Assembly: GCA_001829315.1 (NCBI GenBank)
Contig: MIAY01000002.1
Coordinates: forward strand, 1 to 54,309
Reading direction: 5' to 3'
DNA: 54,309 nt
Source: Spirochaetes bacterium GWE1_32_154
GTDB taxonomy: Bacteria > Spirochaetota > GWE2-31-10
Made by a program: the position numbers and the translations under genes. The notes beneath the pieces were generated by a model. That model was not told where the DNA came from. It did not search any database and was given only the letters and a program-made list of their open reading frames with translations. This document shows positions 44,065 to 54,309 of this stretch, in pieces. Numbering within the stretch: position 1 is the first letter of the stretch; every line of letters starts with the position of its first letter.

Positions 44065-45297
44065 CTATAAACAAAAACCGAATGGTATGCATATTATTTT
44101 TTCATCAAGAAACACTACTTTTTCTCCGTTATTAACAACAATACCAATCGGACAATCGTTAACTTTAACAAATTCTTTGAGCGTTATTATATCCTTTTTA
44201 CCAATGTGTTGCGAATATTTAATTTCAATAGGAATTATACCGAAAGTACCTTCCAGTATAAGATCAATTTCGCCTCCATTAGAAGTTCGGTAATAATAAT
44301 AATCAAAAATAACACCACGTGCATTAAGATTTCTTATAATTTCTTCGATAACCATAGATTCAAACGATAAACCCATTTTTGGATGAGTCAAAAGTTGACT
44401 GAGATTATTTATTCTCAAAAGATGATGAAGAATTCCGGAATCTCTTACATATCCTTTAGGATGTTTTGTTATTCTTTTTTCTGTATTTTTATCATAAGGT
44501 AGAATTTCTCTCCATATAAAGGTTCCATGTGCAATTTTAAAATATTCTCTGACTGTTGGTTGAGACACTTGAAGAGATCGGGCGATATCGCTATAATTTA
44601 TTACTGTACCGGAATAATATGCAAGGGTTTGAATAAACTGTTTAAATCGCATCCGGTTAAGAGACGGAAAAAGTCGGGAAATATCTCTTTCAACATAGGT
44701 ATTGATATAGTTTTCTTTCCAATGATCGTAAAAACCACTATCGTTACGAATAAAAGGCTCAGGATATCCACCTTTTAACCAATAGTGATGTATCATTTCA
44801 AGATCAGCGGTTTGTTTAAATAATAACGTATCCTTGATTAGCGAAGGATCATTTATGAGAGAATATAAGTTAGCAGGAGAATTAATGATGGTTTCTGAAA
44901 GTAAAAGCGGGGAAACTTCGATTATACCAATTCTTCCTGCAAGGGTTTCTGAAATTGACTGAATAAGTTCAGGCGAGCTTGAACCGGTAATAATGTATCT
45001 GCCGTATTTATTTCTATCATTATCAACCGCTACTCGTAATGCAGAAAAAAGAGATGGTAACAGTTGTGCTTCGTCGATGGCAATTTTGTTGTTATTTAAC
45101 CGTAAAAAAAGATCAGGATCAAGAGATATATAATTGTAGTCAGATATTTTTTCAAGATCAAATAATTTCCACTCTTCATCAAGAGTTTTTAAAAGAGTTG
45201 TTTTTCCGCATTGCCTCACCCCGACAAGTGCAACAATTGGAAAATAAGAGCAATATCTTTGAATAAGATCGCAATATGATCGTTTAATACCATGCAT
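44065..45297 (-). CDS. AAA-type ATP-binding protein with DUF4143 domain
   Basis: This 410-residue protein has Walker A GVRQCGKTT near residue 26, Walker B KIAIDEAQLL, IITGSSSPEL and a DUF4143 domain. The tail, SNGGEIDLILEGTFGIIPIEIKYSQ, keeps a PD-(D/E)xK-like D...ExK pattern. It is the third orphan ATPase of this superfamily in the window. ATG 45297 follows GGGAGGG at seven bases, while ATG 45324 lies inside the promoter. It sits between a toxin-antitoxin pair and the integron integrase. Confidence 0.85.
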   Translation of the reverse strand: MHGIKRSYCDLIQRYCSYFPIVALVGVRQCGKTTLLKTLDEEWKLFDLEKISDYNYISLDPDLFLRLNNNKIAIDEAQLLPSLFSALRVAVDNDRNKYGRYIITGSSSPELIQSISETLAGRIGIIEVSPLLLSETIINSPANLYSLINDPSLIKDTLLFKQTADLEMIHHYWLKGGYPEPFIRNDSGFYDHWKENYINTYVERDISRLFPSLNRMRFKQFIQTLAYYSGTVINYSDIARSLQVSQPTVREYFKIAHGTFIWREILPYDKNTEKRITKHPKGYVRDSGILHHLLRINNLSQLLTHPKMGLSFESMVIEEIIRNLNARGVIFDYYYYRTSNGGEIDLILEGTFGIIPIEIKYSQHIGKKDIITLKEFVKVNDCPIGIVVNNGEKVVFLDEKIICIPFGFCL

Positions 45298-45315
45298 TTT
45301 CAAACCCTCCCTTTG

Positions 45316-45344
45316 AATATACATGGTAAAATCACAAAGGTCAA
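45316..45344 (-). promoter_or_regulatory. Sigma70-type promoter of the DUF4143 ATPase
   Basis: On the minus strand TTGACC (plus 45339-45344), 17 bases and TATATT (plus 45316-45321) stand just before the GGGAGGG ribosome binding site. Confidence 0.6.
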
Positions 45345-45440: not shown

Positions 45441-46658
45441 TTAATTATCAAGCGGACTTTTCACCCCGAGTTTATTCTTACTTGCAACATGAGTATAAAT
45501 CATTGTAGTTTCAAGATTTGAATGCCCGAGAAGCTCTTGTATAGTTCTGATGTCATACGAACTTTCAAGCAAATGAGTGGCAAAACTATGACGAAGCGTA
45601 TGCACACTTGCCGCTTTGGTTATACCTGATTTATCCAGCGCCTGCTTAAATGCTTTTTGAAGTGTAGACGGGCTTATGTGATAGCGCCGGATACAGTTTT
45701 CTTCCTTATCGACGGATACTGATTTTGCAGGAAAAAGCCAGAACCAACGCCACTCTTTTGAAGCATTTGGATATTTACGGACTAATGCTTTCGGTAGCAT
45801 AACTCCCGGTATATTTTGCTGACGGTCTTTTAAGTAATATTTTTTTGTATTTTCTATATGCTTTTTAATATCGGATATGAGTGATTCTGATAGTATAGTT
45901 GCTCTGCTTTTGTCACCTTTTGAAGCATTTATATTAATAACGCTACGTTCAAAATCAATATCTTTAATTCTGAGAGTTATACATTCATTTAGTCGAAGTC
46001 CACCGCCATAAATTATTGATGCCATTAATTTATTCTCGCCATTTAAATGATTGAAAATTGTTTTGATTTCTTCTTTTGATAACACAACAGGCAAGAAATG
46101 GCTTTGTTTTGCTCTGTGTGAATTTGCAATATCTTCAATAGGTATGTTTAGAATATTTCTATATAAAAATAGCAATGCACTGAATGCCTGATTTTGAGTT
46201 GATGACGATACTTTCTGTTTTATAGCGAGAAATGCGAGGTAGTCTCTTACGTTATCAGATGATAATTCATCAGGTGGTATGATGTTGTTGAATGTAATAA
46301 AATTTCTGATCCATACTCTATATGATTTAATCGTACTGGATGAAAGGTGTTTTATTTTTGATATTCTTGAAAACTCTTCGTATGCCTGTGTCCAGTCATT
46401 TATTTTTTCGACGGAATTGCTTTTTATTTCTTTTGTATACTGAATATAAAATTGTATTGCTGTTTCAGCCTGATTGATTTGCCATGGCTCTTTTTTATCC
46501 GCTAATGAATTGAGATAATATTCTAGTGTTGCGTGTGATGTAATATCTCTCTTATTTCTTTCTGCATATTTATAGAACATTTCTGCCCAGTTGTTAAGGA
46601 AGAGTGCTTCCTGGGGCGGATAATGCAACCGTCTTTCTACAAACTCTAAAAACTTCAT
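45441..46658 (-). CDS. intI: Integron integrase (tyrosine recombinase)
   Basis: This 405-residue recombinase joins cassettes at attI. Catalytic residues are Arg222 (GGGLRLNE), Lys near 248-250, HTLRH (His353, Arg356), LLGH (His379) and Tyr388 (MIYTHV). The segment LPKALVRKYPNASKEWRWFW (289-307) is the extra patch found only in integron integrases, where it helps bind folded attC. ATG 46658 has AAGGAG eight bases upstream, and the frame to 46700 is not needed. About 70-90 residues precede the usual core-binding domain, making it longer than the roughly 320-340 residues of class 1-3 integrases. Confidence 0.95.
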   Translation of the reverse strand: MKFLEFVERRLHYPPQEALFLNNWAEMFYKYAERNKRDITSHATLEYYLNSLADKKEPWQINQAETAIQFYIQYTKEIKSNSVEKINDWTQAYEEFSRISKIKHLSSSTIKSYRVWIRNFITFNNIIPPDELSSDNVRDYLAFLAIKQKVSSSTQNQAFSALLFLYRNILNIPIEDIANSHRAKQSHFLPVVLSKEEIKTIFNHLNGENKLMASIIYGGGLRLNECITLRIKDIDFERSVININASKGDKSRATILSESLISDIKKHIENTKKYYLKDRQQNIPGVMLPKALVRKYPNASKEWRWFWLFPAKSVSVDKEENCIRRYHISPSTLQKAFKQALDKSGITKAASVHTLRHSFATHLLESSYDIRTIQELLGHSNLETTMIYTHVASKNKLGVKSPLDN

Positions 46659-46680
46659 ATTTTTTTCTCCTTTTTTTACG

Positions 46681-46722
46681 GATTCCACATAATAAGACAT
46701 AGAAATGTGTTATGTGGAAATC
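46681..46722. repeat. Inverted repeat between the integrase gene and attI
   Basis: GATTCCACATAA (46681-46692) faces TTATGTGGAAATC (46710-46722), with a smaller ACAT/ATGT pair inside. GGATTCC recurs at 46798-46804 near the recombination point. It may be a control site for intI or an accessory integrase-binding site. Confidence 0.45.
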
Positions 46723-46736
46723 TCATTACTATTTAT

Positions 46737-46764
46737 TTGATTTTTTTGTTTTTTATGTTATGAT
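46737..46764 (+). promoter_or_regulatory. Candidate cassette promoter (Pc)
   Basis: TTGATT (46737-46742), 16 bases and TATGAT (46759-46764) point into the first cassette from the integrase side. In such AT-rich sequence other pairs are possible (for example TTGTGA with TTATAC just downstream), so the exact boxes are tentative. Confidence 0.4.
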
Positions 46765-46789
46765 TTTGTGAAATTTTTATAATTTTTTT

Positions 46790-46823
46790 TATACGGTGGA
46801 TTCCGTATAAGAATTGTTAGACG
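46790..46823. other. attI recombination site
   Basis: Cassette 1 joins at G46816/T46817 in GTTAGACG. The crossover is fixed because CGTCTAAC, its exact reverse complement, occurs at the inner end of this cassette's attC (48752-48759). The left part contains the dyad ATACGG/CCGTAT (46792-46808). The full attI extent cannot be defined from sequence alone. Confidence 0.75.
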
Positions 46824-46856
46824 GACGCTATCGCGCGTGTAAAATAGGAGTTATAA

Positions 46857-48668
46857 TTGTCTGCTATAATAGAACAAATAATTAAAGAATATTTGCTATG
46901 CACTAATTCTGATTATGCATATTTAATGACAGGCTCGTGGGGGGCAGGGAAAACTCATTTTATTAAAAATGATATATTAAAAAATAAAGAGATAAACAAA
47001 GAACACAAAATAATATATTATTCTCTTAATGGTGCTGAAGATATTAATAAAGTAATAAGATCAATTTATTTTTCTATTATAAGTTTTGGTAAAATTAACC
47101 CTGAAAATGAAGATTTAGTACAAAATACATTTGATATTTTGGAAAATATAGATGATAAGAGTTTTAATATTTTCTTAAGCGTTATAAAAAACTTTAAAGA
47201 TAAAACAATTGAATCTCTGTTTAAAAAAATGAAAAATTCAAAATTTCTCATAATATTTGATGATTTAGAGCGAAAATCTGAAAAAATAGATTATACAGAC
47301 CTGCTAGGGCAAATATATAGTAAATTAATTGAAAAAAATATTAAAGTTATTTTTATTTCGGATGAATCAAAAATAGAATGCAACTCATATAAAAGTGAGA
47401 AAGAAAAATACATAAGAAGAACTTTAAAATTTGAAATAAATAAAAAATCAATATTCGAATATTTACTAAATAAAAATTCGTTATATAATGAAAGATTAGT
47501 TAATACACTTCTTGATATCTTTTCGGATGATGAAACGCAACCAAATTTGAGATCAATAATTTTTGCTCTTGATGTGTATGAAAAACTACTTAATGAGTAT
47601 TCAAAAATCACAAATAAAGAAGATTATTACAATATTGAAGATTATTTTTATTCAATTGTAGTTTTTTGTAACGAATATAAAAATGGAAAGATACCGGATA
47701 ATGAAATTAATAAAATAATTGGTATTAATAAAACTTATTCGCTTGATAAACTTATCAAAAGTGTTACAGCCAGTGATACTCAGAAAGAGTGGTATACTCT
47801 TTTTTATGAAAAAAATAATAAAATTGAACATCCATTCGATTTGCCAGAAGTAATCATTAATTATATAGTAGAAGGATATTTTGACGAGAAAGAATTTATT
47901 AAAGAAATAAAAAAAAATAATATTGAACCTCAATATGAATTAATCAATGAAATAAGAGATTATTATTATTATTATGAAATTGATGATTTAAAAAGAAAAG
48001 TGAATATGATTGAGCAATTCATTAAAGATAATAAATATAAAGTTTCTGACATTTCGAATATTTATTCAGTAGTTATTGAATTAAATAATAAAATTGGTTT
48101 AGAATACAATATTTCTGCTTTTGAAACCTTATTACTTAATTTTATTGATAAAAACGAGGAACAAATTAAGGAACTTGTTAATGAATATAATTATAAGGAA
48201 TCATATTCATTAACAAGGAATGTTATAGAGAAAAAAATAAATGAAATTCACATTAAATATTATAAAGAAAAAGATCATGATACATATGATAGATTTATTA
48301 CTTCTATATTAAAAGATGATATTGAATCATTTGCAAAAATATACAGAAATACAGATAAAAAAGATCTTTTTAAAAAAATAATAGAATATAAATTGTTTGA
48401 AAGATTTAGTAAACTATCAAATAAATCAATTAACTTATTAATTAGAGTTATTTATGAAGAAGTATTAAACATATCTAATGCTGGAAAAGTTCTTAATGAT
48501 CAAATTGAATATTTAGAACAGTTAAAATCTTTTTTTTGTTCTGATAAGAAAAATATTATATCTGATAAACTTAAAACTGTACTTTATGAAGACTTAATTG
48601 ATACAATTAAAAAAGCGATAATTCATATTGAAAACACAGGAAATCGAGCAAGAAATAATAGTATTTAG
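46857..48668 (+). CDS. KAP-like P-loop NTPase (cassette 1)
   Basis: This 603-residue protein has Walker A GSWGAGKT (26-33) and Walker B FLIIFDDLER (Asp135, Asp136), the pattern of KAP-family and related STAND-like P-loop NTPases. The rest is helical, Lys- and Asn-rich, with no recognised effector or clear membrane helices. Some KAP-type NTPases (for example PifA) block phage growth, so a defence role is plausible but inferred. The start is TTG 46857 with AGGAG six bases upstream. It is more AT-rich than the flanking core genes, consistent with acquisition. Confidence 0.72.
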   Translation: MSAIIEQIIKEYLLCTNSDYAYLMTGSWGAGKTHFIKNDILKNKEINKEHKIIYYSLNGAEDINKVIRSIYFSIISFGKINPENEDLVQNTFDILENIDDKSFNIFLSVIKNFKDKTIESLFKKMKNSKFLIIFDDLERKSEKIDYTDLLGQIYSKLIEKNIKVIFISDESKIECNSYKSEKEKYIRRTLKFEINKKSIFEYLLNKNSLYNERLVNTLLDIFSDDETQPNLRSIIFALDVYEKLLNEYSKITNKEDYYNIEDYFYSIVVFCNEYKNGKIPDNEINKIIGINKTYSLDKLIKSVTASDTQKEWYTLFYEKNNKIEHPFDLPEVIINYIVEGYFDEKEFIKEIKKNNIEPQYELINEIRDYYYYYEIDDLKRKVNMIEQFIKDNKYKVSDISNIYSVVIELNNKIGLEYNISAFETLLLNFIDKNEEQIKELVNEYNYKESYSLTRNVIEKKINEIHIKYYKEKDHDTYDRFITSILKDDIESFAKIYRNTDKKDLFKKIIEYKLFERFSKLSNKSINLLIRVIYEEVLNISNAGKVLNDQIEYLEQLKSFFCSDKKNIISDKLKTVLYEDLIDTIKKAIIHIENTGNRARNNSI

Positions 48669-48712
48669 CCGATTTCTGAAAATGGTACTGCATTAAACCA
48701 ATTAAAGAATAT

Positions 48713-48733
48713 AAGAATCAAGAATAGATTCTT
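48713..48733 (+). terminator. Weak hairpin at the end of the KAP-like gene
   Basis: AAGAATC (48713-48719) pairs with GATTCTT (48727-48733) around a seven-base loop, 45 bases after the stop codon and before attC1. There is no T run, so a terminator role is uncertain. Confidence 0.3.
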
Positions 48734-48752
48734 AGTAAGAAAATAATAAATC

Positions 48753-48925
48753 GTCTAACAACCGATTTAACACCGACTCGGCTATTGTCACACAAATTGC
48801 TAAACTGGTTATTAAATGTTCAAATTTTTGGTTTAACCGGAAGATTTCTTGTTAATCACTAAGAACCGGGGTGAATAAGCAATTTATGCGCCAATTACGC
48901 CTCACGGGTTAATCGGGCGTTAGCC
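48753..48925 (+). repeat. attC site 1 (173 nt)
   Basis: The outer cores are GTCTAAC (48753-48759) and GTTAGCC (48919-48925). The inner arms AACAACCGATTTAAC and GGGTTAATCGGGCGTT are complementary apart from a few extrahelical bases. Further in, AAATTGCT pairs with AGCAATTT. The central 60 or so bases form the variable structure. Confidence 0.9.
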
Positions 48926-48966
48926 AGACCCTTTCGGGCAAAAATATTAAATAATACGGAAAAACA

Positions 48967-49365
48967 ATGAAAAAGATTGCAATAATAAGTTTTTATATTT
49001 CATTCATTCTAATATTAAGTTACTCACATAGTGGAAAAACTGATGCTAATGGTGGTCATTGGAATCGGAAAACAGGAACTTATCATACACATAATGGAGG
49101 TTCAACTAATACCTATAATGGAAACTCAATTAAAGCTAATACATCTTATTACAATTCAACCTTTACAAATGAAGATGCGGGAAAATATGCGTATGTAACT
49201 CAAAATGCTAATCTAAGAAAAGGATCTGGAAAAAAATATGAAATAATTAAAGTACTACTTAAAGATTCATCAGTAAAAATAATTAAAATCGAGGGTGATT
49301 GGGCAAATGTTGAACTAGATAATAGTACTCATGGTTGGATATCAAAGATATTTCTAAGAAAGTAA
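48967..49365 (+). CDS. Exported protein with YHYH-type motif and SH3b domain (cassette 2)
   Basis: This 132-residue protein has a signal peptide (about 1-21). A short SGKTDANGGHWNRKTGTYHT stretch follows, resembling the YHYH motif of small exported bacterial proteins (here YHTH). A bacterial SH3 domain occupies about 75-132 (AYVTQNANLRKGSGKKYEII and WANVELDNSTHGWISK). SH3b domains often bind peptidoglycan or peptides. The ribosome binding site is weak. The function is unknown, and pairing with a channel gene suggests an envelope role. Confidence 0.72.
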   Translation: MKKIAIISFYISFILILSYSHSGKTDANGGHWNRKTGTYHTHNGGSTNTYNGNSIKANTSYYNSTFTNEDAGKYAYVTQNANLRKGSGKKYEIIKVLLKDSSVKIIKIEGDWANVELDNSTHGWISKIFLRK

Positions 49366-49386
49366 ATTTTAAATGAGGTACATACA

Positions 49387-50163
49387 ATGCTGAAAAAAAT
49401 ATACAATATTCTTGAAATTACGGAAGATAAAAATAAATTAGCAAAAATAATTGATTGGTTATTAATTAGTTTAATTGTACTTAATGTCGTTTCTGTAATT
49501 GTCTCTTCATTTAATAATTTATCCGCAACGGCAGAAAAAATATTGAATGGATTTGAGATTGTATCAGTTATAATATTTACAATAGAATATGTATTGAGAT
49601 TAATGACTTCAAAATATAAATATGAAAATAGTAGATTTCCATATTTTAGATATATGTTCTCATTTTTGGCAATTATCGATTTATTTGCAATATTACCTTT
49701 TTATTTACCATTAATAATACCATTTGATTTGCGTTTTTTAAGAATGTTGCGTTTATTCAGATTATTTAGAATATTTAAATTAAATAGATATAACGATGCT
49801 ATGCAAGTTATTGGAAAAGTATTAAAAAATGAAAAAGAAAAACTTTTCACAACAATATTTGTAATGACAATATTAATAATATTTTCATCATCAATAATGT
49901 ATTATGTTGAAAATACAGCACAACCAGATAAATTTCCAAATATAGTTGCTTCAGTTTGGTGGGCAGTTGCTACATTAACAACTGTAGGATATGGAGATGT
50001 TTACCCGATAACAGCATTGGGTAAAATATTAAGTGGAATAATTGCAATTCTTGGAATTGGTTTAGTTGCTCTTCCAACAGGTATAATTAGTTCCGGTTTT
50101 ATTTCTGAAGTAACGAATAAAAATAATAAAAAAATATGTCCACATTGTGGAAATGTAATATAA
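49387..50163 (+). CDS. Voltage-gated potassium channel (cassette 2)
   Basis: This 258-residue protein has six transmembrane segments, with an S4 helix of regularly spaced arginines (RFLRMLRLFRLFRIFKLNRY). The pore helix and selectivity filter are TLTTVGYGD (filter TVGYGD 199-204). It ends with a short zinc-ribbon-like CPHCGNVI. It is a Kv-type ion channel of the inner membrane, probably selective for potassium. GAGG precedes the ATG by seven bases. Such channels are uncommon integron cargo. A role in stress or membrane-potential response is inference. Confidence 0.9.
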   Translation: MLKKIYNILEITEDKNKLAKIIDWLLISLIVLNVVSVIVSSFNNLSATAEKILNGFEIVSVIIFTIEYVLRLMTSKYKYENSRFPYFRYMFSFLAIIDLFAILPFYLPLIIPFDLRFLRMLRLFRLFRIFKLNRYNDAMQVIGKVLKNEKEKLFTTIFVMTILIIFSSSIMYYVENTAQPDKFPNIVASVWWAVATLTTVGYGDVYPITALGKILSGIIAILGIGLVALPTGIISSGFISEVTNKNNKKICPHCGNVI

Positions 50164-50172
50164 TAATTTTGT

Positions 50173-50346
50173 GGCTAACAACCGATTTAACGCCGACTCG
50201 GCTATTGTCACACAAATTGCTGAAATGTTTTTTATAGGTTCTAATTTTGTGTTAAACTGGAAGATTTCTTGTTAATCACAACGAACTGGGCTGAAAAAGC
50301 AATTTATGCGCCAATTACGCCTCACGGGTTAATCGGGCGTTATATT
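50173..50346 (+). repeat. attC site 2 (174 nt)
   Basis: Inner core GGCTAAC (50173-50179), outer core GTTATAT (50340-50346). It is very similar to attC1 across the whole length, including the central region, with scattered changes. AACAACCGATTTAAC and the last 36 bases before the crossover are the same as in attC1. Confidence 0.9.
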
Positions 50347-50457
50347 GCTAAGAATTTTGAAATAAAATAATATAGGAAGGAACAATCCTTTTTAATTAAG
50401 AGAAAATATGGTTTAACTATTAAAAAAAATTATGATATAGTTAATTAAGTTAAAATA

Positions 50458-52644
50458 ATGGCGGATTATATGAGCGATAATTTATCAATTTTTTTTAAAG
50501 AATTCGATATCAAATTTCCAAATTTGGAAATAATAGATAAAGATTGGTATAAAAACAATATAGGCGTTAGTTCTTTTTGTTCCTCTGCAAAAGCAAAAGA
50601 TGCAAAAGGAAATTATAGCGAAGAGTATATAAGAGCTAGATTTGTTTGGAGTTTAGTAAACTCAGGAATGTATAATAAAGAGTATATTTGTGTTGAATTT
50701 GGTTTTCCAAAAGGAAATGGAGGTAAAAGTCTCAATCCTGATATCGTTGTTTTCAAAAATAAAGACTGGTTTCATGATTATGCGCAGGCAAAGGCAAGTA
50801 AAAATTTTGCAAAAATACGTAAAAATGTATTAGTGATATTTGAAACAAAGAAAAATAATAAATCTGTAGAAAGCGCCATTGAAAATCAGCTTCGTTCAGC
50901 AATGGAGCTGAATACTTCACAAGATAGAATCTTTGGAGTATATTTTGATGATCAATCAGATATATTAATCTTCAAGAAAATTGGAAACTCTGAAATTAGA
51001 AGATTTAACGAAACTAATGAATTACAGCAAGATGGCATAATTGGTTGGAATTTAGAGAAAAGAGACTTACTTATAGAACTTCCGAGTCAACAAGATTTTA
51101 TTGAAAACAATGAAAGTATTTCTGATCTTGCCAAACTAAAACTTGATTCTCTGGATGCAATAGATGAGGCAAATTTTAATGATTTAATGAACTCCCTTAA
51201 AAGAGCAAATGATAGTATCCGCCCGGAAAGTCCTCTTCGTGAGATGATTGTTGAATTCTTGACTCTTAAAGTTTTTGATGAAAAGCGAAGTAAAAGAGAT
51301 AAGACTTATTTGCAATTCTATATTGTATCAGAAGAAAAAAGAAAAGACGGACTTGCCGAAAAAAGTTTTCGTGAAAGAATAAATAACCTTTATAAGGAAG
51401 CTCAAAAAGAATATCCAAAGGTACTAGGTAGAGAAAAAAGGCTTTTTACTTATGATAGCGAGTTTAGACCATCAAAAAGTAATGATGAAAAATTTCTTGT
51501 CGCATTAGTTGAGACATTTCAACAAAGAGCAATTCTGAAAGCTAAAAACGAAAGTTTTAATCAAATTATTTTTAATAATTTTGGAAGCGAACAACAGAAA
51601 GCTGACAAAGGACAGTTTTTTACTCCTATACCAGTTGTTAAAAATATGATAAAACTTTTAAACCCAATCAAGGGAGAAGAGCTTTGTGATCCTTGTTGCG
51701 GTATTTGTGATTTTCCAGCTATGGCTTTTCGTCATGCTAACAAAGAAGCATTAAAAAAAGAAGATTTTTTTCAAACAGGAGAGCATTACTACGGTTTTGA
51801 TATTGAAGGAAGTAATTTAAAACTTGCAGAATTAAATTTGGTTTTAAATGGAGATGGCGGGGCTATATTAGAGCAAATGAACTCACTTTCACAAAAACTT
51901 TTGCAAGATGGAATAACTGTTTTAAAAGAAGGTGAATTCACAACCCAAAATTATAACTCAGAAACATGGAATCACCTTTCTGATTCAAATAAAGACTTAA
52001 AAAAGTTTAAGATGATAGCCACTAATCCACCTTTTGGAAAGGGACGAGACCTTAAAACCGGGGCTAACGGAAAATGGGATTTACCGAAAGAAACAATAGA
52101 ACTCTACGAAACCTTTAAAGAAAAATCTGATCTTGACAGCAAAGGAAATAAAAATTATCCAAATTCTATGGATATGGGAGTTTTATTTTTAGAAAATGCC
52201 TACAAATGCCTTGAAGATGGTGGAAGAATGGCAATCGTTCTTTCAAACTCAATTGCAAGCATCAAAGAATGGCAAAATATTCGTAAATGGTTTTTATCAA
52301 AAATGAGGATTGTAGGAACTTTTGATTTGCCAAGTAATACTTTTGGAGAAACAGGAGTTGCAACAACTGTTATTATCGCCTACAAACCTAATAGAAACGA
52401 GCAATATTTACTGTGTGCGGATTATGAAGTTTTTGTAAAGGATATTGTAAATATCGGTTATGAAGTTAAAACAGTTAAAAGATCGGTTCATTTTGCTCCG
52501 CAATATATCATTAATGAAGAAACTTTTGAGAAAACAGGAAAACTAAACGAAGATTTTTCGGCGATGCAAAGAGAATGGAAAGAATTTTTACAAAGGCAAG
52601 AAGAAGAAATAAAAAACGCCTTTCATTTATCACAAATGGATTAA
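50458..52644 (+). CDS. Fused endonuclease-methyltransferase (HsdR_N nuclease plus N6-adenine methylase; BcgI A-like)
   Basis: This 728-residue protein joins two activities. Residues 45-185 form a PD-(D/E)xK nuclease domain like the HsdR N-terminus, with NPDIVVF (Pro94-Asp95) and VLVIFETKK (Glu129, Lys131). Residues 330-700 form an HsdM-type adenine methylase with motif I DPCCGICDF (411-419) and motif IV NPPF (523-526). Motif I has Cys where Gly is usual (CGxG becomes CGIC). No HsdR translocase gene is present, so restriction would depend on this nuclease together with the adjacent specificity subunit. The ribosome binding site is weak, and ATG 50470 is an alternative. Confidence 0.82.
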   Translation: MADYMSDNLSIFFKEFDIKFPNLEIIDKDWYKNNIGVSSFCSSAKAKDAKGNYSEEYIRARFVWSLVNSGMYNKEYICVEFGFPKGNGGKSLNPDIVVFKNKDWFHDYAQAKASKNFAKIRKNVLVIFETKKNNKSVESAIENQLRSAMELNTSQDRIFGVYFDDQSDILIFKKIGNSEIRRFNETNELQQDGIIGWNLEKRDLLIELPSQQDFIENNESISDLAKLKLDSLDAIDEANFNDLMNSLKRANDSIRPESPLREMIVEFLTLKVFDEKRSKRDKTYLQFYIVSEEKRKDGLAEKSFRERINNLYKEAQKEYPKVLGREKRLFTYDSEFRPSKSNDEKFLVALVETFQQRAILKAKNESFNQIIFNNFGSEQQKADKGQFFTPIPVVKNMIKLLNPIKGEELCDPCCGICDFPAMAFRHANKEALKKEDFFQTGEHYYGFDIEGSNLKLAELNLVLNGDGGAILEQMNSLSQKLLQDGITVLKEGEFTTQNYNSETWNHLSDSNKDLKKFKMIATNPPFGKGRDLKTGANGKWDLPKETIELYETFKEKSDLDSKGNKNYPNSMDMGVLFLENAYKCLEDGGRMAIVLSNSIASIKEWQNIRKWFLSKMRIVGTFDLPSNTFGETGVATTVIIAYKPNRNEQYLLCADYEVFVKDIVNIGYEVKTVKRSVHFAPQYIINEETFEKTGKLNEDFSAMQREWKEFLQRQEEEIKNAFHLSQMD

Positions 52645-52647
52645 ACT

Positions 52648-54120
52648 ATGAGAAGTTATATTATTAAACCAAAATCTGTAAAGAAAAGCGAGATAATCAA
52701 AAATGATTATATTTTCTCAGCATCTAGACATAATAATATTCAAATAAATTCAAACTTTGATTATCTAGTAAATTTAATAAAGATTTCAAAAAAAAGCGTA
52801 AGTTTAACAAATCAAAAAAAATATTTTAACTATGTAGAAATTGGAAGCATAAACACAACGACAGGCTATATTGAGCCTACTCTTAAAAAATCAATAGATA
52901 TTTCTACTGATTCAGTTTTTCAATTAGAAAAAGATGATATTTTAATTTCAACCGTAAGAACTTATCTTGGTGGGATTGGTATTATAAATCAAAAAGATCA
53001 ATATTTAGTGGCCTCAAAAGCACTAATAGTTTTAAGAGAATTAAAAAAAGATATTAATAAATATTATTTATTTGGAATTTTAAGAACTGGTTTTTTTATA
53101 GAACAAACAAATTTAATTCTAAATGCTTCAATGTACCCAAGAATGGATAAGGATAGTTTTGATAAATTAAAAATCCCATTTCCAACCAATACCAACCATC
53201 AAAATCCAGAAAAAGTAGAGAATCATATTTCTAACATAGTGCAAAACATAATCGATAAAGAAGAACAAATCAAACTAAAAAATAAACAAATCGATGAACT
53301 GATAGAAAAAGAGCTAAAAGAAAAACAAAAAGCAGGAAGTTTTAGTTATAGATATCCGAAAATTAGTGAGATAAGAGAAGAAACAAGGCTTGATACAGGA
53401 CTATATGAAAGAAATTTTAAAGAAATTGATTTTCTAATTCGGAATTATGAAGGAGGTATTTTTCAAATACCACTTGATAAATTCAAAAGCGGATCAACTC
53501 CTAAAGTTAGAGTATTTGATCCTCAAAATAAAAAATATAAATGGGTAACTCCAACCTTAATTACCGATCAGGGTAATTATCAACCATCGGCAACTATTAA
53601 TATGGATTCTAAAAACAATTTATCAAAAGATTGTATTCTAATTATAAATAGAACATCAAAAGGCAAAAAGGGCGAATATGTTGGTATTACATGTTTTTAT
53701 GAAGTCAATAGTTTTGGTTTAGGACAACACAATCAAGGTTTATATCAAATTAAGGATTATTCAAAATTTGAAAAATTATTCATTATTTGTTTATTGAACT
53801 CAAAGCTTTATAGAAAATTATGCGGTTGTATTTCTATTGGGTCTAAAATGAAAGAAATGAAATCTTTGGATTTTGCTTTTCTAAAATTTCCTAATTTTCC
53901 TGATTCCAAACAAAAAGAAATCGTAAACCTCTATTATAAATCACTTGAGAAAAATAAAAATTTAAATATTGAAAATTATTTAGAAATAGAGAAAATAAGA
54001 AATCGTAAATTAGGTATTTTTCAACTTAATCTTGAAATATTTTCTCTTCAAGAACAATTAGAAACTTTGGTTCATAAAATTGTGAGTGAAGAATATATTG
54101 AAATAGATTTCGCATATTAG
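52648..54120 (+). CDS. hsdS: Specificity subunit (HsdS-like) of the cassette 3 system
   Basis: This 490-residue protein has two target-recognition halves (about 10-200 and 240-440). They are separated by a long coiled coil (about 205-235, NIVQNIIDKEEQIKLKNKQ) and closed by a second helical repeat at the C-terminus, the usual HsdS architecture. MYPRMDKDSFDKLKIPFP is the characteristic end of the first half, and DFAFLKFPNFPD matches it in the second. It starts three bases after the methylase stop codon. It should direct the complex to a bipartite DNA target. Confidence 0.87.
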   Translation: MRSYIIKPKSVKKSEIIKNDYIFSASRHNNIQINSNFDYLVNLIKISKKSVSLTNQKKYFNYVEIGSINTTTGYIEPTLKKSIDISTDSVFQLEKDDILISTVRTYLGGIGIINQKDQYLVASKALIVLRELKKDINKYYLFGILRTGFFIEQTNLILNASMYPRMDKDSFDKLKIPFPTNTNHQNPEKVENHISNIVQNIIDKEEQIKLKNKQIDELIEKELKEKQKAGSFSYRYPKISEIREETRLDTGLYERNFKEIDFLIRNYEGGIFQIPLDKFKSGSTPKVRVFDPQNKKYKWVTPTLITDQGNYQPSATINMDSKNNLSKDCILIINRTSKGKKGEYVGITCFYEVNSFGLGQHNQGLYQIKDYSKFEKLFIICLLNSKLYRKLCGCISIGSKMKEMKSLDFAFLKFPNFPDSKQKEIVNLYYKSLEKNKNLNIENYLEIEKIRNRKLGIFQLNLEIFSLQEQLETLVHKIVSEEYIEIDFAY

Positions 54121-54138
54121 ATAAAATATTAAACAGCA

Positions 54139-54248
54139 ATATAACAACCGATTGAACCCGACTCGGCTATGTCACACTTTTTGCTTTCGTTAGCACTCAA
54201 GGCAAAAAATGCGCCAATTACGCCTCACGGGTTAATCGGGCGTTATCT
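54139..54248 (+). repeat. attC site 3 (110 nt, shortened centre)
   Basis: Inner core ATATAAC (54139-54145), outer core GTTATCT (54242-54248). The flanks match attC1 and attC2 (AACAACCGATT, CCGACTCGGCTAT, GCGCCAATTACGCCTCACGG), but about 60 central bases are replaced by a short TTGCTTTCGTTAGCACTCAA segment. The loop side is therefore much shorter than in the other two. Confidence 0.88.
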
Positions 54249-54309
54249 GTTTTTCTAAAAAATGTTACAAAAATGCTTAACCAGGACAAAATAAATAATA
54301 AAACAGACT
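54243..54309 (+). mobile_element. Start of integron cassette 4 (cut by the window edge)
   Basis: TTATCTG follows the attC3 crossover, so another cassette begins here. The remaining 67 bases hold no recognisable gene. Confidence 0.6.

Follow-up and report, generated by a model that had tools for sequence, protein, structure and literature searches.

The integron cassette and its two genes

The DNA analysed here (the window) is an entire contig, G000:C2, of the draft genome of Spirochaetes bacterium GWE1_32_154: 54,309 bases out of 4.03 Mb in 43 contigs. Towards its right-hand end, three complete integron cassettes, all on the plus strand, lie beyond a minus-strand integrase gene (intI). The third cassette holds two adjacent genes and nothing else, one for a fused nuclease and methylase (RM, restriction-modification) and one for a specificity subunit (S). 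An earlier note, made from the sequence alone, had proposed a complete two-gene restriction-modification system inside a single integron cassette. This proposal holds, as both open reading frames (ORFs) are intact and on the plus strand, the attC limits are firm and IntI is nearby. The features are as follows (TRD, target-recognition domain; CR, conserved region; aa, amino acids; PDB, Protein Data Bank).

50340 to 54242, plus strand: cassette 3, the RM cassette, 3,903 bp; ends from the R' sites and R'' complementarity
50470 to 52644, plus strand: RM subunit gene (nuclease, helical connector, N6-adenine methylase), 724 aa (728 aa if begun at ATG 50458); PF02384 and BsaXI profile match
50620 to 51000, plus strand: PD-(D/E)xK nuclease domain; HSDR_N_2 match over residues 55-150 (E 2.5e-4), invariant residues, alignment to BsaXI E73/D90
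50695 to 50697 (E80), 50740 to 50742 (D95), 50842 to 50844 (E129) and 50848 to 50850 (K131), with Q144, plus strand: nuclease residues within that domain
51571 to 52470, plus strand: N6-adenine methylase domain; PF02384 over residues 372-671 (E 2.3e-25), PF07669; NPPF 523-526 at 52024 to 52035
52648 to 54120, plus strand: S subunit gene, TRD1-CR1-TRD2-CR2, 490 aa; PADLOC Specificity_I (E 7e-17), PDB HsdS matches, block pattern
53206 to 53325, plus strand: CR1 long helix of S, about residues 187-226; conserved; low-confidence model
53968 to 54087, plus strand: CR2 long helix of S, about residues 441-480; low-confidence model
54139 to 54248, plus strand: attC of the RM cassette; bottom strand -45.4, top strand -35.6 kcal/mol

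The limits of the cassette are given by its recombination sites. The window holds three copies of a 35-bp attC end (at 48889, 50309 and 54212; chance expectation 0), none with more than one mismatch. The three attCs align with one another, and in each the folding energy favours the bottom over the top strand, as expected of attC. The R'' box of each complements the start of its own cassette: GTTAGACG in cassette 1 (whose R'' box is CGTCTAAC), GTTAGCC in cassette 2 and all 10 bases of GTTATATTGC in cassette 3, where GCAATATAAC at 54136-54145, the R'' end of the attC, is the exact reverse complement of GTTATATTGC at 50339-50348. This complementarity is the trace of a circle closed at G|TT and fixes 50340-54242 as a single unit; it lies between attC/attI recombination points beside intI and has its own attC at the 3' end, starting about 15 bp past the S stop codon. 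The end that the earlier note gave for the cassette, 54242, is correct, whereas its start, 50341, was off by 1 bp.

The nuclease-methylase subunit

The full RM reading frame (50458-52644, plus strand) encodes 728 aa, and its second ATG, at 50470, appears the more likely start because the relatives at loci L002, L043 and L031 begin at the residue aligned with Met5. The residues D95, E129 and K131 and the methylase motif NPPF at 523-526 lie exactly where the earlier note had placed them, and E80 can be added as a fourth nuclease residue. E80, D95, E129, K131 and Q144 are invariant across the window, L002, L031 and L041, are also readable in L043 and L078, and have been kept although the relatives are only 23-39% identical.

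The best solved relative of the protein is RM.BsaXI (E 2.2e-32 when a four-relative profile is used; E 6.8e-23 from a different alignment), and the order of nuclease, connector and methylase agrees between the two. The profile alignment pairs E80 with BsaXI E73 and D95 with BsaXI D90; it ends at BsaXI residue 97, and E129 and K131 are paired with BsaXI E105 and K107 by the ExK motif only. Alanine mutants of BsaXI E73, D90, E105 and K107 lose cleavage (PMC11997821). In the AlphaFold model of RM, only the succession of elements within the nuclease part (predicted local distance difference test, pLDDT, about 50-80) fits a PD-(D/E)xK core. A Foldseek search with the same model put BsaXI at the top, with E 6e-3 and probability 0.30, and was not used as evidence. 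The earlier note would have given up its reading had profile searches found the N-terminal domain unrelated to nucleases; the sub-threshold HSDR_N_2 match, the alignment to the BsaXI nuclease and the conserved residues all point to a nuclease.

The specificity subunit

The S gene starts 3 nt after the RM stop codon, and its product resembles HsdS (PDB 5ybb_D and 3okg_A). DNA identity to a copy of the operon in a member of the Bacteroidales (described below) rises and falls in blocks: about 88% where RM ends, 52-59% in TRD1, 87% in CR1, 50-64% in TRD2 and 70-76% towards CR2. This alternation of variable and conserved blocks is a hallmark of specificity subunits that exchange their target-recognition domains. 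The two halves of S align weakly to each other (E 0.06). The HsdS-like matches and the TRD1-CR1-TRD2-CR2 pattern thus agree with the two-domain specificity subunit that had been suggested for the second gene.

A probable Type IIB enzyme and the alternatives

The product of the cassette is very probably a restriction-modification enzyme of Type IIB (RM+S), similar to BcgI and BsaXI. This assignment is made by architecture and catalytic residues, since the plan is that of BcgI and BsaXI: an N-terminal PD-(D/E)xK nuclease (HSDR_N_2 sub-threshold) fused to a gamma-class N6-adenine methylase, a separate S built of two TRDs and a pair of conserved helical regions, and no HsdR translocase in the cassette or beside the relatives. 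With RM.BsaXI as the best solved relative, the two-subunit BcgI-type plan put forward in the earlier note is upheld. Type IIB enzymes number 28 in REBASE, 16 of them with sequence (PMC11997821). BsaXI (RM.BsaXI + S.BsaXI; PDB 8w0p, 8w2p and 8w2q; PMC11997821, PMC9159934) likewise has an RM fusion followed by a separate TRD1-CR1-TRD2-CR2 S gene, shares the catalytic E, D and ExK, and has an S of similar size (476 aa, against 490 aa in the window). It differs in its longer RM (911 aa vs 724-728 aa), in low overall identity, in the spacing of D90 and E105, which is exceeded by that of D95 and E129, and in the knob (626-742) and paddle, insertions of the BsaXI subgroup that are apparently absent from the window RM: the profile alignment leaps from BsaXI residue ~631, the end of the methylase, to the strand at 740-760 and then stops. 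Knob and paddle are likewise absent from other RM+S enzymes (PMC11997821). BcgI, the archetype of Type IIB (PMC3874165), was compared by description, not by alignment; it too has RM and S genes and no motor, and as described for the RM+S group the window RM apparently lacks knob and paddle and has a predicted C-terminal helical tail.

BcgI-like enzymes have a 2RM:1S composition, require both subunits for both activities and cut on two sides of a split site (PMC3874165, PMC11997821). By analogy, two RM chains and one S chain of the cassette would probably form an (RM)2S complex, in which the two TRDs of S would read a split DNA site. When both half-sites lack N6-methyladenine, the N-terminal PD-(D/E)xK domains would cleave at set distances, most probably to either side of the site and with no need for an ATP-driven motor; on modified or half-modified sites it would be the methylase domain that acts, keeping the host DNA marked. 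In principle the integrase could also cut out the entire 3.9-kb system, transfer it or bring it back to expression, always in one piece.

Several results weigh against the assignment or against a working enzyme. The HSDR_N_2 match of the window RM reaches 21.6 bits, under the Pfam cut-off of 25 (the same family matches the pTET3 protein discussed below at 21.4 bits and L031 at 24.1 bits), and the BsaXI nuclease stretch taken alone scores a weak 13.6 bits. The window S has no specificity-domain match of its own in the Pfam search, the AlphaFold models are poor (mean pLDDT 37 for RM and 30 for S, from few input sequences), and promoter-like sites in the cassette leader occur at chance level only. 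In addition, the nearest named NCBIfam families are MAD2 (E 2e-42) and MAD5 (E 1e-8) of the MADS system, and PADLOC mad2 and mad5 match too, which would suit a piece of a bigger defence system that relies on methylation, for instance MADS or BREX. These scores are far under the curated cut-offs, though (145 of 720 bits for MAD2, 34 of 400 for MAD5), the NCBIfam MAD2 match covers the protein from residue 213 onwards, without the nuclease, the cassette holds no further gene, and no extra MAD genes lie beside the relatives' pairs among the ORFs listed, not every one of which was family-searched. Hardly more probable is the idea that a classical Type I system is represented here by its methylase and specificity genes, with an HsdR borrowed from elsewhere in the genome and an N-terminal domain that is vestigial or structural. 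The methylase and S parts do look like Type I HsdM and HsdS, and the genome holds three hsdR-like genes (contigs C12, C40 and C3). Each of these has its own partner, however, a same-strand hsdM at a distance of about 5-9 kb; in other phyla and on other contigs the operon has no hsdR and no HsdR-sized ORF beside it; and the nuclease residues are conserved over divergent relatives. The earlier note had excluded a classical Type I system and named an HsdR motor elsewhere that pairs with these subunits as the finding that would overturn its view; the three hsdR genes with their own hsdM, and the relatives' operons lacking hsdR, leave that view standing. A Type I system with a borrowed HsdR, MADS and BREX were accordingly rejected, on the hsdM partners and on MAD scores below cut-off; each of these readings we consider very improbable.

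A different kind of alternative, compatible with the Type IIB reading, is that of an inactive or silent system, either kept in storage with little protein produced from the cassette, or methylating DNA but not cutting it. We consider this possible, if on balance doubtful. Weak expression is assumed for most cassettes at a distance from the integron promoter (PMC12409362), and the RM cassette, being third in the array with no promoter of its own above chance, may be silent. The two intact frames and conserved catalytic residues speak against decay, but not against silence.

Relatives and origin of the cassette

A Bacteroidales metagenome-assembled genome carries the same operon on two contigs (L031, DUQS01000021.1; L032, DUQS01000097.1). 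Its RM protein is 89-96% identical, the 3-nt gene spacing is the same and CR1 is conserved. It differs in being chromosomal, in lacking the middle of RM (the copy being split over two contigs) and in its TRDs, whose divergence leads us to expect a different recognition site. Local alignment covers window positions 50421-51686 and 52264-54121, so that homology runs from about 37-50 bp before the RM start to the S stop codon. The flanks of the Bacteroidales copy are ordinary, with a DUF554-like membrane protein and, by inspection, a dinB-like polymerase. No attC was found near L031, L032, L079 or L080 by the motifs of the window attC family, and the neighbouring genes there are ordinary; ab initio attC detectors were discarded because they missed the known attCs of the window, which served as positive control. 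Since the non-cassette copy is homologous only over this interval, the sequence comparison indicates that a ready-made, formerly chromosomal operon became a tightly packaged cassette between integron recombination points, and that the two copies have changed their TRDs since. The Bacteroidales twin, from another phylum, shows what was packaged, namely the two genes with some 40-50 bp on the 5' side and an attC about 15 bp after the last stop, and is a concrete example for the question of how cassettes form.

Among 393 genomes drawn from the host's phylum, full-length relatives occur only in the host and two others, where the RM+S pair is 36-39% identical and sits among ordinary genes with S adjacent. 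A viral contig (L078:4750-6750) carries an RM gene 32-36% identical beside Mu-like phage structural genes, and for this reason the RM family may ride on prophages too; it was the sole relative in the scans of viral contigs, the others giving none. Finally, plasmid pTET3 of Corynebacterium glutamicum (L041:4923-7469) encodes a protein, WP_010991823.1, with identical nuclease residues, a methylase and about 23-25% identity. It differs from the window pair in having an S-like C-terminal part fused in one chain of 848 aa (nuclease, methylase, S).

The surrounding integron and host genome

The remaining features of the integron are these.

45441 to 46700, minus strand: integron integrase IntI, 419 aa with an N-terminal extension of about 108 aa; TIGR02249 at 397 bits vs a cut-off of 265, Phage_integrase match
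46701 to 46816, no strand: region between intI and the cassettes, with a putative attI junction G|TTAGACG at 46816/46817; complementarity to the R'' box of cassette 1
46817 to 48919, plus strand: cassette 1, KAP-type P-loop NTPase, 603 aa; PADLOC candidate PDC-S49
48753 to 48925, plus strand: attC of cassette 1; 35-bp attC end; bottom strand -51.1, top strand -45.3 kcal/mol
48920 to 50339, plus strand: cassette 2, SH3 protein and ion-channel-like protein, from ORFs and domain matches
50173 to 50345, plus strand: attC of cassette 2; 35-bp attC end; bottom strand -45.1, top strand -42.1 kcal/mol
54243 to 54309, plus strand: start of cassette 4, ended by the contig edge, as the window is the whole contig

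The KAP-type NTPase of cassette 1 matches its PADLOC defence candidate at E 1e-24, so that a part in defence is possible for two or more of the three complete cassettes. Cassette 2 holds two genes, for a small SH3-domain protein and for an ion channel of the voltage-gated type (Ion_trans, E 9e-34). Immediately downstream of intI, at 44065-45324, lies an AAA_14/DUF4143 ATPase that matches PADLOC PDC-S01 (E 4e-91). Five more attC-like sites of the same family occur beyond the window, on contigs C39, C10, C34 and C17 (L081-L084), and in three of these four contigs (C39, C10 and C34) they sit close to a contig end; the array is therefore probably longer than seen here, the assembly having split inside it. 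A ParE toxin, a GNAT protein, an AAA_15 ATPase and a PD-(D/E)XK transposase are among the ORFs near these sites. Elsewhere in the host (L085:4339-6390) there is a 683-aa methylase that has an HTH_17 at its N terminus as well as a TaqI_C specificity domain and looks like an independent single-chain system. The host genome also gives four strong matches to the flagellar sheath protein FlaA (PF04620), a family with no match in any of 14 control genomes; FlaA being a spirochaete protein, this places the host probably in Spirochaetota. A 16S gene was not found in the assembly.

Implications

Both the enzyme type, a rarely found one, and the integron setting of defence genes are already known. Cassettes of chromosomal and mobile integrons carry restriction and other defence genes, type II restriction systems included, and a review of them describes integron-borne restriction genes as reduced in size and systems of more than two genes as absent (PMC12409362). 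What is unusual about the RM cassette is that it contains a complete, full-size, two-gene system of 3.9 kb, in contrast to those reduced genes. It would very probably serve in defence against phages or foreign DNA. One could further imagine the full-size Type IIB system as a working defence cassette shuffled by the integrase, in which relocation within the array toggles a second methylation pattern together with restriction, and the fusion of cutter and protector, sharing one S, fixes the ratio of the two activities when a new cell or position is entered; this is speculative, and we think it unlikely. Integrons are now viewed as stores of phage defences, and the RM cassette would add to these stores a complete two-subunit enzyme at full size. 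If it is silent and then moved to the front, its enzyme would meet an unmarked host genome. The cassette also allows the silencing and re-awakening of restriction by shuffling, without death of the host, to be tested.

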